Below are positions 6,647-40,165 of a stretch of DNA of 43,020 nucleotides, piece by piece. The first letter of the stretch is position 1; each line of letters opens with the position of its first letter. Made by a program: the position numbers and the translations under genes. This DNA is from Candidatus Peregrinibacteria bacterium. Lineage in GTDB: Bacteria > Patescibacteriota > Gracilibacteria > UBA1369 > JACRIC01. The stretch is taken from contig JACPHH010000008.1 in the NCBI GenBank assembly GCA_016188705.1, forward strand, positions 1 through 43,020, in the 5' to 3' direction. The notes beneath the pieces are model-generated. The model saw only the letters and a program-made list of their open reading frames with translations. It did no database searches and was not told the origin of the DNA.

Positions 6647-6878
6647 ACTGGCTTTTTAGCACTTGTCCAGTTTAAAAATTGTAACTGCCCACCGCTGTTG
6701 CTTTTTATTCAGATAAAAGAGGGCGGGGACTCCCATTTGAGCGCATAGCGAAGCGTAGCGAAAATGGAGTCCCAGCCCTCTTTTTCAAAAAAAACGGTGG
6801 GCAAGTACTAAAAATTCACGGTGTCGAGGAAAGTGTAAGGAAAATGTTGTGCAAAACCATTGAAAAAAATTCGACTTT
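6647..6878. other. Intergenic region dominated by a type D palindrome
   Basis: The gap between the protease and RNase H genes holds the type D palindromic element annotated separately. The remaining 70 bases next to the RNase H stop show no further feature. Confidence 0.6.
6681..6807. repeat. Palindromic element, type D, copy 1
   Basis: Inverted ends GTAACTGCCCACCG and CGGTGGGCAAGTAC enclose a second inverted repeat (GAGGGCGGGGACTCCCATT with AATGGAGTCCCAGCCCTC) around the loop GAGCGCATAGCGAAGCGTAG. The same core recurs at 23541-23670 and 34237-34527. The whole element can fold into one long imperfect hairpin. No protein is encoded, so it is a non-autonomous repeat, MITE- or REP-like. Confidence 0.8.
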
Positions 6879-10295: not shown

Positions 10296-10463
10296 AAGGA
10301 AACCCTGATAAATATGATTTTGTTACGAAAATTGCAAAATTCGAGCGAAAACGCTGAATGACCGACGAAGCCGTATCAGAAGAAGATACGGTAAGGAGGT
10401 CTGAAGCGTTTGCAGCCGAATTTTGCAATTTGCAGTAGTAAGCATATTTATCAGGGTTTCCTT
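10296..10463. repeat. Palindromic element, type A, copy 1 (intergenic)
   Basis: Perfect inverted ends begin AAGGAAACCCTGATAAATA at both sides. Inside are further inverted segments and a central hairpin (CCGTATC / GATACGG). Read on the minus strand from GGA-AAC-CCT, the whole 165-base element is an open frame of 55 codons, the same frame that is read as protein in queE, although this copy is intergenic. Confidence 0.88.
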
Positions 10464-23497: not shown

Positions 23498-23781
23498 GTG
23501 GTTTTTGAGTGAAAGAGATTTTTTGAAGCATGAGGATTATGTACCTGCCCACGGCTTTTTTTTGAAGAAATGGGGCGGGGACTACCATTTGAGCGCATAG
23601 CGAAGCGTAGCGAAAATGGAGTTCCCGCCCCATTTCTATCTGAATAAAAAGTAAAGCAGTGGGCAAATACTGAATGATCTGCCGCGTGAAAGAGATTTTT
23701 CGAAACACGAGGATGATCTGTCTCATGAAATGGATTTTTCGCGGCATGAGTATTTACCATGGGAAGTTGACGTATTTTCAT
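23494..23781 (-). CDS. Small bridging ORF between queC and queF containing a type D palindrome
   Basis: 95 codons. Its ATG overlaps the stop of queC (ATGA) and its TGA overlaps the TTG start of queF (TTGA). The encoded peptide has three similar segments (HAAKNPFHETDH, RVSKNLFHAADH and HASKNLFHSK) from imperfect about 37-bp repeats, with the complete type D element (23541-23670) read in frame between the second and third. No fold is recognised. It may serve only to carry ribosomes from queC to queF, or be an accident of repeat growth. The exact overlap at both ends is the argument for calling it. Confidence 0.4.
   Translation of the reverse strand: MKIRQLPMVNTHAAKNPFHETDHPRVSKNLFHAADHSVFAHCFTFYSDRNGAGTPFSLRFAMRSNGSPRPISSKKSRGQVHNPHASKNLFHSKTT
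23507..23758. repeat. Three imperfect ~37-bp repeats split by a palindrome
   Basis: Units resembling GTGAAAGAGATTTTTCGAA then CACGAGGATGATCTGTC occur at about 23507-23543, 23686-23720 and 23722-23758. The type D element sits between the first and the other two. They encode the KNLFH segments of the bridging ORF. Not CRISPR-like: no unique spacers of constant length. Confidence 0.55.
23541..23670. repeat. Palindromic element, type D, copy 2
   Basis: Inverted ends GTACCTGCCCAC and GTGGGCAAATAC enclose ATGGGGCGGGGACT...GTTCCCGCCCCATT and the conserved loop GAGCGCATAGCGAAGCGTAG. It interrupts the ~37-bp repeat array between queC and queF and remains open in the frame of the bridging ORF. Confidence 0.82.
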
Positions 23782-24431
23782 ACTTTTTCGTATGGAAGCG
23801 GATCTGCGATGCCCGCTTCACGAAAACCTTTGAGCCGAAGCTCGCAAGCGGGACAAGCGCCACAAGCCGGACGTTTGCCATAGTAGCATGTATGAGTATG
23901 CCGCAAAAGGTCGATTTCACCAAAATCTCGCATGAGTTCCACGGTTTCTTTTTTCGTTAAAAACATGAGCGGCGTGTGCATGGTAAAATCATATTCCATC
24001 GCGAGATTGAGCGTTTTTTGAAGAGACTGGATAAACGCGTCGCGACAGTCGGGATATCCGCTAAAATCGGTCTGGCATACTCCTGCCACAATATTTTGTA
24101 TCCCTTTTTGATAGGCAATAATTCCAGCCAGCGAGAGAAACATGAGATTTCTTCCAGGAACGAAGGTCGATGGAAGAGCATTTTTCCACTCAATTTTTAC
24201 ATTTTTTCGCGTTAGCGCGTTTTTTGTCATGTCATGGAGAAATCGCGCGTCAATCACCGTGTGTTTGATTTTTTTTATTTTAGCGATTTTTTTGGCACAG
24301 ACAATTTCCACCCTATGCCTTTGGTCATAATCAAAGGTTATCGCCTCGACCGCGTCAAATTTTCGCATGGCCCAAACAAGACACGTGCTACTATCCTGAC
24401 CTCCCGAAAAAACAACAAGCGCTTTTTTCAT
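23778..24431 (-). CDS. queC: 7-cyano-7-deazaguanine synthase (QueC)
   Basis: 217 residues, usual length. QueC converts 7-carboxy-7-deazaguanine to preQ0 with ATP and ammonia. The PP-loop SGGQDSSTC is at residues 9-17, the zinc site is CYYGKRPACGACPAC near the C-terminus, and GRNLMFLSLA is the second conserved block. The ATG at 24431 lies only six bases from the end of a type A palindrome, so any ribosome-binding site would have to lie within the repeat; no Shine-Dalgarno motif is seen. The stop overlaps the bridging ORF that leads to queF. Confidence 0.95.
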   Translation of the reverse strand: MKKALVVFSGGQDSSTCLVWAMRKFDAVEAITFDYDQRHRVEIVCAKKIAKIKKIKHTVIDARFLHDMTKNALTRKNVKIEWKNALPSTFVPGRNLMFLSLAGIIAYQKGIQNIVAGVCQTDFSGYPDCRDAFIQSLQKTLNLAMEYDFTMHTPLMFLTKKETVELMRDFGEIDLLRHTHTCYYGKRPACGACPACELRLKGFREAGIADPLPYEKV

Positions 24432-24437
24432 GGCATA

Positions 24438-24604
24438 AAGGAAACCCTGATAAATATGATTTCGTTACGAAAATTGCAAAATTCGAGCGAAAACCCTGAA
24501 CGACTGACGAAACCGTATCAAAAAAAGATACGGTGAGGCAGTCTGAAGCGTTTGCAGCCGAATTTTGCAATTTGCAGTAGTAAGCATATTTATCAGGGTT
24601 TCCT
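24438..24604. repeat. Palindromic element, type A, copy 2 (between queE and queC)
   Basis: Same ends and core as copies 1 and 3. It fills nearly all of the queE-queC gap. On the minus strand the 55-codon frame beginning GGA-AAC-CCT is open throughout here too, with several substitutions against copy 3. Confidence 0.88.
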
Positions 24605-24609
24605 AAAAA

Positions 24610-25590
24610 TTATACTCCTCTTTTATTGCCCCACAGCAAAATATGAAGTCTCGGAGTAAATTGTACGCCAATGCCGCGGCAACGCTTTTTGAGCCATTTT
24701 CCACGTTCCAATACGGCTTCTTTTCGTATTCCTTCAGGCATTAAATAGACATTTTTAAGTGGAATCTTATACTGCTCGCATATATTCAGGGCTTCCAAAA
24801 TATCATTTTCATGCGAAATTACAAATTTATAACTCACATTTTTTCGCAAGAAATTTTTATGCCGAATATCGTCAATCTGATGATTTCTATTTTGAATATT
24901 TTTGTCCTGAAAAAATTTATTTTGAACATCTCTGCTCTGACCATCGTTTTGCTGAACATATTTAGGAAACCCTGATAAATATGATTTCGTTACGAAAATT
25001 GCAAAATTCGAGCGAAAACGCTGAACGACCGACGAAGGCGTATCAGAAAAAGATACGGTGAGGAGGTCTGAAGCGTTTGCAGCCGAATTTTGCAATTTGC
25101 AGTAGTAAGCATATTTATCAGGGTTTCCTTTATCAGGATTTCCTTTGCTACTATCATTACTTTGTATAAACGGCAATATCTTCAACGTATAAGTTCTCGT
25201 CTTTGCGTTTTTCAGTTTAAAACTTACGTTGATTTGGTCAAATGGAAGCTCGGTTTCAATACTTCCGTTGGTTTCGATTTCAAAAAAATATGTCGGCAGC
25301 GCGTTCATTATTTTTCGAATCGCGTCTTGATGCAATAAAGGTTCTCCACCTGTAAAAAGAATATTTCTGCAATGTTTTTCACGGCTCAAATTTTCGATAT
25401 TTTTCAGAAGTTCCGATAGTGTGTATGTTTTGAAATCAAGAAAATCCTTGTGCCAACTGTATTTCGTGTCGCACCAATCGCAGCTAAGATTGCAGAGGGC
25501 AAAGCGAATAAAAATAAATGGTTTTCCAATATTTTTTCCTTCGCCCTGAATTGAAAAAAAAAGATCCGAGACAGATATAAGTTTTTCCAT
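24610..25590 (-). CDS. queE: 7-carboxy-7-deazaguanine synthase (QueE) with an in-frame repeat insertion
   Basis: 326 residues against about 210-245 usual. QueE is the radical-SAM enzyme making 7-carboxy-7-deazaguanine. The cluster motif CNLSCDWC (Cx3CxxC) and the SAM-binding GGEPLL are intact, as are FSIQGEG at the start and NVYLMPEG and RLHILLWGNKRG at the end. Residues about 154-209 are the translation of a complete type A palindrome (24964-25130), followed by about 40 residues of Asn/Gln-rich linker before the family sequence resumes at SYKFVIS. The insertion lies between conserved blocks, so the enzyme may still work. First gene of the que operon. Confidence 0.93.
   Translation of the reverse strand: MEKLISVSDLFFSIQGEGKNIGKPFIFIRFALCNLSCDWCDTKYSWHKDFLDFKTYTLSELLKNIENLSREKHCRNILFTGGEPLLHQDAIRKIMNALPTYFFEIETNGSIETELPFDQINVSFKLKNAKTRTYTLKILPFIQSNDSSKGNPDKGNPDKYAYYCKLQNSAANASDLLTVSFSDTPSSVVQRFRSNFAIFVTKSYLSGFPKYVQQNDGQSRDVQNKFFQDKNIQNRNHQIDDIRHKNFLRKNVSYKFVISHENDILEALNICEQYKIPLKNVYLMPEGIRKEAVLERGKWLKKRCRGIGVQFTPRLHILLWGNKRGV
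24964..25130. repeat. Palindromic element, type A, copy 3, inside the queE coding sequence
   Basis: A full copy with perfect ends, AGGAAACCCTGATAAATATG and its reverse complement. It is read on the minus strand as about 55 residues beginning GNPDKYAYYCKLQ and ending KSYLSGFP. Directly beside it (25131-25144) a partial end is duplicated, giving the GNPDKGNPDK doublet. Confidence 0.92.
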
Positions 25591-34236: not shown

Positions 34237-34527
34237 ATTTGCCCACCGCTTTTTTTGAACAAATGGAGCGGGGATTATAGGAACTCACACAAAACCCCAT
34301 TTCTACTGCAATTTTAAATTTTTGGCTCCAAATTGTTCAGAGCTCGTCAACGTATCTTATTTGATACGCCTTCCTCGCTCTTCACAATTTTCGCTCAAAA
34401 ATTTAAAATTTCGTTACGAAAGCGAGTTTTATGTGAGTTCCTGCCATTTGAGCGCATAGCGAAGCGTAGCGAAAATGGAATCCCCGCCCCATTTCTATCC
34501 GAATAAAAAGTAAAACGGTGGGTAAAT
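34237..34527. repeat. Palindromic element, type D, copy 3, split by a type B element
   Basis: Outer ends TTTGCCCACCG and CGGTGGGTAAATA, and the loop GAGCGCATAGCGAAGCGTAG, are those of type D. The left half is interrupted after GGAGCGGGGATTAT by a 164-bp element, after which the D sequence resumes with GCCATTTGAGCG. Confidence 0.85.
34279..34442. repeat. Palindromic element, type B variant, nested in type D
   Basis: Own inverted ends AGGAACTCACACAAAAC and GTTTTATGTGAGTTCCT; inside, in the opposite orientation to the other B copies, are CTACTGCAATTTTAAATTTT, CAACGTATCTTATTTGATACG and TTCGCTCAA. The element entered an existing type D copy. Confidence 0.87.
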
Positions 34528-34541
34528 ACCTATTTTTCCGT

Positions 34542-40003: not shown

Positions 40004-40165
40004 AGGAGCCTCTGAAAAACGTAACTTCGTAACGAAATTTTACCATGTCGAGCGAAAATTGTGAACAGCGACGAAGGCGTATCAGATTAGATACGTCGAG
40101 GAGCTGTGAACGATTTGCAGCCGACATGGTAAAATTGCAGTAGATTACGTTTTTCAGAGGCTCCA
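40004..40165. repeat. Palindromic element, type B, copy 3 (between hyfE- and hyfF-like genes)
   Basis: Ends AGGAGCCTCTGAAAAACGTA and TACGTTTTTCAGAGGCTCC; inner arms TTTTACCATGTCG and CGACATGGTAAAA. It fills the gap between two genes of the Ehr operon and touches the start codon of the second. In this copy the minus-strand GGA frame meets a stop. Confidence 0.87.

Follow-up and report, generated by a model that had tools for sequence, protein, structure and literature searches.

Palindromic elements of probable IS5 type lie in frame within queE and other conserved genes of a Candidatus Peregrinibacteria bacterium and its relatives

The queE locus

The window, by which we mean the whole stretch of 43,020 nucleotides that was analysed (contig JACPHH010000008.1 of assembly GCA_016188705.1, Candidatus Peregrinibacteria bacterium), carries on its minus strand a gene for the enzyme QueE whose open reading frame runs through a near-perfect palindrome (GGAAACCCTGATAAATATG...CATATTTATCAGGGTTTCC). 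The features of the locus are the following.

23778..24431, minus strand: queC, the next gene of the queuosine/preQ0 pathway, intact and adjoining queE
24440..24603, minus strand: second type A copy, intergenic between queE and queC, duplication TAAA/TAAA
24610..25590, minus strand: queE (7-carboxy-7-deazaguanine synthase), 326 aa with the insert, open throughout
24840..24956, minus strand: extra low-complexity QueE stretch of about 40 residues (VQQNDGQSRDVQNKFFQDKNIQNRNHQIDDIRHKN), absent from relatives
24957..25143, minus strand: probable older 19-bp element terminus (GGAAATCCTGATAAATATG), split into 25129-25143 and 24957-24964, the parts sharing the duplicated TAAA
24961..24964, no strand: left 4-bp target site duplication, TTTA on the plus strand and TAAA in gene sense
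24965..25128, minus strand: type A element, a 164 bp palindrome classed here as a probable IS5-type MITE, in frame in queE and read as GNPDKYAYYCKLQNSAANASDLLTVSFSDTPSSVVQRFRSNFAIFVTKSYLSGF(P)
25129..25132, no strand: right 4-bp target site duplication, TTTA, an exact direct repeat of the left one

The assignment to QueE rests on sequence together with fold, the structure model matching Bacillus subtilis QueE (5th5, E 3.5e-14). The sequence score does not reach the curated cut-offs of NCBIfam, the best being 102 of 260 bits. The radical-SAM CxxxCxxC motif is intact (C33, C37, C40), and the TGGEP motif, the QueE core and the C-terminal RLH..WGNKRGV are retained, which bears out an earlier reading of the sequence alone that had called both the radical-SAM motif and the C-terminus whole. 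At the position of the S-P-K or S-Y-K seen in most relatives the protein has S-F-K. The insertion site is the loop that separates this motif, SPKL-like and reading SFKLKN here, from the YKFV strand; from the SxK-N motif to YKFV there are about 113 residues here, as against 5-14 in all 14 homologues from the order. Element and duplication together account for 56 of these residues and the low-complexity stretch for about 40; a second GNPDK is among the remainder.

The sequence-only reading had allowed that relatives might show an insert of the same length but unrelated sequence, or that queE might be a pseudogene with an intact second copy elsewhere. No insert of such length occurs in the 14 relatives, whose 5-14 residues rule out natural variation in loop length, and a search of the own genome with the QueE query returned only element copies, with no second queE found in the assembly, so that an explanation by a paralogue is ruled out as well. 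A complete and intact tgt is present in the own genome. In the AlphaFold model the core of QueE has pLDDT mostly between 85 and 98 and residues 143-240 are largely below 50; the model thus leaves the core intact and predicts the insert to be a disordered loop.

The low-complexity stretch at 24840-24956, which lies downstream of the insert, occurs nowhere else in the own genome. Extra loops of this low-complexity, repeat-like kind are also seen there beside elements in the O-antigen ligase-like protein, RsmA and UvrD (loop sequences SITASCPEITPTRPTITN... at L046, MSQSQNQNQNQPIH... at L059 and DVQIIDVQNTDVQHAYDRHTDV at L185). Downstream of queC, at 23509-23756 of the window, lie three imperfect 32-bp direct repeats (GTGAAAGAGATTTTTTGAAGCATGAGGATTAT).

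The element and the doubled GNPDK

The best-supported boundaries of the element are those of a 164 bp unit at 24965-25128 with the termini GGAAACCC..GGGTTTCC. The sequence-only reading had placed a complete element at 24964-25130; its presence stands, but its limits do not, having taken in bases of the duplication. A reading with a 2 bp duplication and a 166-bp element was dropped in favour of one with 4 bp and 164 bp, under which 44 copies match exactly and the odd bases at the termini are accounted for. Some 55 in-frame residues (154-209) had been proposed; within our limits residues 155-209 come from the element and the 56th codon from the duplication. The minus-strand reading contains no stop and gives the product GNPDKYAYYCKLQNSAANASDLLTVSFSDTPSSVVQRFRSNFAIFVTKSYLSGFP. 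The RNA is predicted to fold with an energy of -69.9 kcal/mol, compared with -28.5 kcal/mol for shuffled sequences (z -11), and Rfam holds no family matching the element. One sister copy in the own genome is 99% identical to it over its full length, and about 20 more places are at least 85% identical over most of their length. Given these near-identical copies and the strong fold, the element is far from a chance palindrome. With three differences from the type A consensus, the queE insertion is young.

The doubled peptide GNPDKGNPDK at the end of the insert had been taken as a scar of the insertion. When the element and one TAAA are removed and the flanks joined, the result is GGAAATCCTGATAAATATG, identical at 18 of 19 positions to the type A terminal repeat. 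Because the joined flanks match that repeat so closely, the present copy appears to lie within an older terminus, and this accounts for the doubling better than a scar does: most likely the insertion was nested, entering the TAAA of the 19-bp terminus of an older copy. The remainder of that older copy is most likely either gone from the queE site or no longer recognisable.

A family of elements in the genome and the order

The own genome (1.37 Mb in 35 contigs) was read in stretches around element copies, in an assembly that has gaps. A BLAST-type search gave 72 family matches in it, and a profile built from 18 copies gave 154, with boundaries that are approximate for the most diverged copies. 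Across the order, which contains Candidatus Peregrinibacteria records and so places the host outside Rickettsia, the family is present in 19 of 89 genomes; only three further genomes in the class sample have matches, mostly weak ones. Type A is 164 bp long, and the other subtypes are mostly 161, 162 or 163 bp. Besides the two copies at queE, the window holds the following.

10298..10461, minus strand: third type A copy of the window, flanks TCAA/TTAA
28031..28192, minus strand: 162-bp subtype copy outside genes, duplication TTAG/TTAG, 162+4 not divisible by three
40005..40164, minus strand: 160-bp subtype copy outside genes, flanks ATAA/ATAA

A related palindrome with GGAACTCACACAAA ends and without matching 4-bp duplications lies at 34280-34441 of the window and at L170, L171, L172 and L173. 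Another repeat family, with the core CATTTGAGCGCATAGCGAAGCGTAGCGAAAATGG, occurs in the window at 6730-6818, 23582-23670 and 34441-34529.

Target duplications and the link to IS5

In a set of 102 near-full copies, drawn from both the own genome and relatives, 44 have exactly identical 4-bp flanks and 74 agree in at least three of the four bases. Shifting the register leaves identity in 0-3 copies at offsets of two bases or more; the 10-14 identities seen at an offset of one base in either direction are what an overlap with the true register would produce. The duplicated site is YNNR, with T or C at position 1 in 39 of the 44 and A or G at position 4 in 42. The IS5 group duplicates YTAR. At most of the gene insertions just three to four of the four duplicated bases are kept, and at that in the sugar transferase two.

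Two sister genomes carry insertion sequences with matching termini. That in G060 is 1169 bp long, encodes an IS5-family transposase (NF033581, E 3.7e-100) and has GGAAGCTCTGAAAAAC termini and the duplication TTAG/TTAG; the second, in G039, is likewise of the IS5 family (NF033581, E ~1e-100), with termini GGACTCTCTGAAAAAAG and flanks ATAA/TTAA. The G060 terminus GGAAGCTCTGAAAAAC is identical at 15-16 of 17 positions to the subtype B element terminus GGAACCTCTGAAAAAC, and the type A terminus is more diverged from it (12 of 17). An IS630/mariner origin, which apparent TA duplications would suggest, was rejected, the DDE_3 matches being few and both insertion sequences with matching termini belonging to the IS5 family. 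Because the 4-bp YNNR duplications go together with nearly the same termini on IS5-family insertion sequences of sister genomes, the family is best filed, as far as sequence can tell, as IS5-type MITEs. The own genome, in an assembly that is 94.65% complete, has no match to DDE_Tnp_1 or DDE_3, and the mobilising enzyme is therefore one that we infer from the relatives. MITEs outlive the insertion sequences that move them, and an autonomous copy in the same genome is usual without being required.

Insertions inside genes follow a frame rule

A search for element copies inside coding sequences, which the sequence-only reading had called for in the case of type A, found further interior insertions, that in QueE being one of at least ten in the order. 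It was carried out without regard to frame, by joining the flanks of each element and listing the open reading frames that span the empty site; PrmC came from a listing of open frames. The insertions are these.

Own genome: QueE, an O-antigen ligase-like protein, a glycosyltransferase, PyrD and RsmA
G001: NspC, a polyprenyl sugar transferase and PrmC
G010: TilS
G069: UvrC

In PyrD, RsmA, NspC, UvrC and the sugar transferase, the family model of the host protein is split at the element. In all ten cases the length of the element plus four is divisible by three (nine elements are 164 bp and that of UvrC is 161 bp), compared with 36 of 92 other copies (Fisher p 1.9e-4); for 61% of the non-genic copies it is not so divisible. 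Because NspC, PrmC and TilS were fetched for their long open frames, this pooled p value is somewhat inflated, and the cleaner value is that for the own genome alone, where the frame-blind search gave five of five interior insertions against 19 of 51 others (p 0.011). All ten are moreover open in the frame that is used, for which random phase and orientation would give p ~5e-6. The arithmetic is simple: 164 bp and a 4-bp duplication make 168 bp, or 56 codons. The subtypes differ in the frame and strand used.

Several other candidates were examined and set aside. Long open frames at L040, L041, L044, L045 and L051 belong to elements just upstream of start codons, and those at L039 and L043 are probably antisense noise. 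Three copies next to genes and of a length not divisible by three were also checked. The coding sequences of nadA (L210) and of a folding-factor-like gene (L226) stop short of the element or just at it. The copy at mraY (L212) apparently takes the place of the C-terminus and so is not interior: this 162-bp copy, L212:2630-2791 (G042 C9), stands in place of the last transmembrane segment, and mraY probably terminates within or at it.

Elements also lie at the beginnings of genes. At L047:3130-3293 (own genome, G000 C29:67129-67292) the start codon for a peptidoglycan-binding-like protein is part of the duplicated TATG. An ATG thus precedes the element and another follows it, and the 56-residue N-terminal extension may be optional. 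At L056:102-265 (G000 C29) an in-frame element sits in the signal peptide of a T4SS-pilin/TrbC-like protein, between its basic start and its hydrophobic core, the product reading MENNMKKKYQ, then the element, then QYIAFLALSLIM. Decayed element ends seem to have donated start codons to the genes downstream at L053:3175-3342 (MKNHMKAYF...) and L061:1961-2016 (MLTTAHCKIRL...).

Decay in frame

Pieces of the element remain in frame among the weaker matches as well: in DHFR (GTPDKYAYYCELQNSATN), in HisF2 with both ends kept (GTSEKRNFGNENAKIRAK..VCFSEIP), in UvrC (SEAFAAESLYSQSKKRFSEV), in UvrD (GTSEKYHFENE..VFLKIP) and in a pyridine-nucleotide oxidoreductase (GTFVKLHCDGK..FFELP). Together with queE, these remnants form what, judged by sequence, looks like a gradation between fresh and eroded copies, all within genes whose frame is still open. 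Differences of type A copies from their consensus fall 29/24/21 on the three codon positions, and as there is no excess at the third position the peptide bears no sign of selection. The simplest reading is one of tolerance and survivorship rather than of a function of the peptide.

UvrC has further extra stretches: in two genomes of the order one lies inside the RNase H endonuclease domain (L190:5446-7806 and L229:544-2817), and that of the own-genome UvrC matches GNAT acetyltransferase models.

Comparison with known systems

Rickettsia palindromic elements (RPE), described by Ogata et al. (2000, 2002, as cited in PMC10969869 and PMC2229807), are hairpin repeats of about 150 bp with an open frame that occur both between genes and in frame within conserved genes (PMC10969869, PMC2229807). 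Nineteen reading frames have been reported, and in the one case tested, guanylate kinase, activity was kept; the target duplication is entered as "?" (PMC2229807). The analogy drawn in the sequence-only reading is a good one as regards behaviour, since here too dispersed hairpin repeats (164 bp, about 150 matches) are in frame within unrelated conserved genes (ten interior cases). The present elements differ in belonging to another phylum, in the visible 4-bp duplication of YNNR sites and the partner from the IS5 family, and in that length modulo three sets the subtype used in genes. They may be called RPE-like in behaviour, a likeness by description and not a claim of kinship.

With IS5-family MITEs (partner NF033581/PF01609) they share terminal repeats that are 1-3 bases from those of the G060 and G039 insertion sequences, the absence of a transposase of their own, and a 4-bp duplication beginning with Y and ending with R. 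Unlike such MITEs they are nearly palindromic throughout and not just at their ends, are found repeatedly inside core genes, and are in much of the population exactly 56 codons long with the duplication.

Coding MITEs are known from other bacteria, among them ERIC/RU-1, the 168-bp YPAL/RU-2 of Yersinia with a 56-aa ORF and the 107-bp Correia elements (PMC2229807), and protein-coding palindromes of Wolbachia are cited there as well. In the Correia elements of Neisseria only the open subtype enters genes freely, and the subtype without open frames stays out (PMC2229807). The present family resembles these small repeats in having an open frame fused to genes and in a Correia-like exclusion of subtypes from genes; its sequence and host are different, and many of the fusions of those coding MITEs are to hypothetical genes. 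Perfect coding inverted repeats are described from four mitochondrial genomes of Nematomorpha (PMC6649704); these too are long inverted repeats within protein genes with both arms coding, set apart by the fact that ours form a dispersed transposon with target duplications. The sequence-only reading knew of no case in candidate-phyla bacteria, and no report of one was found in the literature searched, whose coverage leaves out most subscription journals.

Proposed mechanism and its alternatives

The reading that we favour, at a probability of roughly 0.85, is that of a non-autonomous, palindromic IS5-type MITE that inserts at YNNR and is translated within host enzymes, tolerated copies being kept. 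An IS5-family transposase would cut the MITE into a 4-bp YNNR target, which is duplicated on insertion. As 168 bp are 56 codons and the palindrome has one frame that is free of stops, a landing in a surface loop in that frame would leave the gene open, and the product would be host protein, about 56 mostly disordered residues and host protein again. Selection would remove insertions whose length or frame does not fit or whose site is intolerant, and those that are tolerated would persist, diverge and shrink through in-frame deletions. In queE the landing site would be the loop between SFKLKN and the YKFV strand, within the terminus of an older copy. Since the element and its duplication make exactly 56 codons and the frame is open, the host appears to read the extra protein and keep its gene. 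Translation through the insert is suggested by the frame statistics, and the host enzymes presumably work with it. The stable mRNA hairpin of -70 kcal/mol might hinder translation.

That same hairpin (-69.9 kcal/mol, z -11) invites the thought that the insert is removed after transcription, by mRNA cleavage like that of an rRNA intervening sequence or by ribosome bypass, so that the protein lacks it. Hairpins of intervening sequences and mitochondrial bypass elements are precedents for such removal or bypass. Removal, however, would require neither an open frame nor divisibility by three. Both are present in all ten interior insertions, the shortened remnants are in frame too and no Rfam family matches, which leaves this a very unlikely course. 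We think it just as improbable that the host genes, queE among them, are mere pseudogenes or neutral passengers whose insertions have yet to be eroded. The youth of the queE insert, three differences from the type A consensus, and the S-F-K of QueE, in place of the S-P-K or S-Y-K of most relatives, would suit such an account; the catalytic motifs and frame are nevertheless intact, queC adjoins, tgt is intact and no second queE was found, the hosts include such core functions as RsmA, PyrD, PrmC, UvrC, TilS and DHFR, and old, diverged or shortened copies are still in frame.

Co-option of the peptide, now functional in QueE and other enzymes, could be read from the fact that the oxidoreductase and DHFR have kept diverged copies; type A copies have no codon-position bias, frames and strands vary by subtype and the insert is predicted to be disordered, and we hold this more improbable still. 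As to a mis-joining of a multi-locus repeat, the assembly is indeed fragmented (35 contigs) and the repeat present in many copies, but the flanks come from one gene in every case, the 4-bp duplication is exact at queE and the same pattern recurs in the independent genomes G001, G010 and G069, so that an artefact is scarcely credible. Translated insertion of a tolerated MITE is the reading that we retain.

Implications

How small palindromes enter conserved genes without destroying these, and what moves them, has been an open question since the Rickettsia work. The present family is an independent case from another phylum, with target duplications and an IS family of matching termini, and it contains its own control in sister subtypes that are one or two bases shorter and were not found inside genes. 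What is new with respect to RPE and coding MITEs is the host phylum, the visible 4-bp duplications and IS5-family source, and the contrast in length modulo three within one family. The series from a fresh copy in queE to remnants in DHFR and HisF2 makes the growth of proteins by selfish DNA traceable step by step. More tentatively, and as a proposal that we consider somewhat less than an even bet, a lineage of IS5-type MITEs may have become compatible with genes, the sum of its length and duplication being fixed as a multiple of three and one of its strands remaining open, and may spread through coding sequence as well as spacers. Were this so, a steady supply of disordered loop insertions decaying in frame would be a source of natural variation in protein length, with the mechanism of transposition in view.
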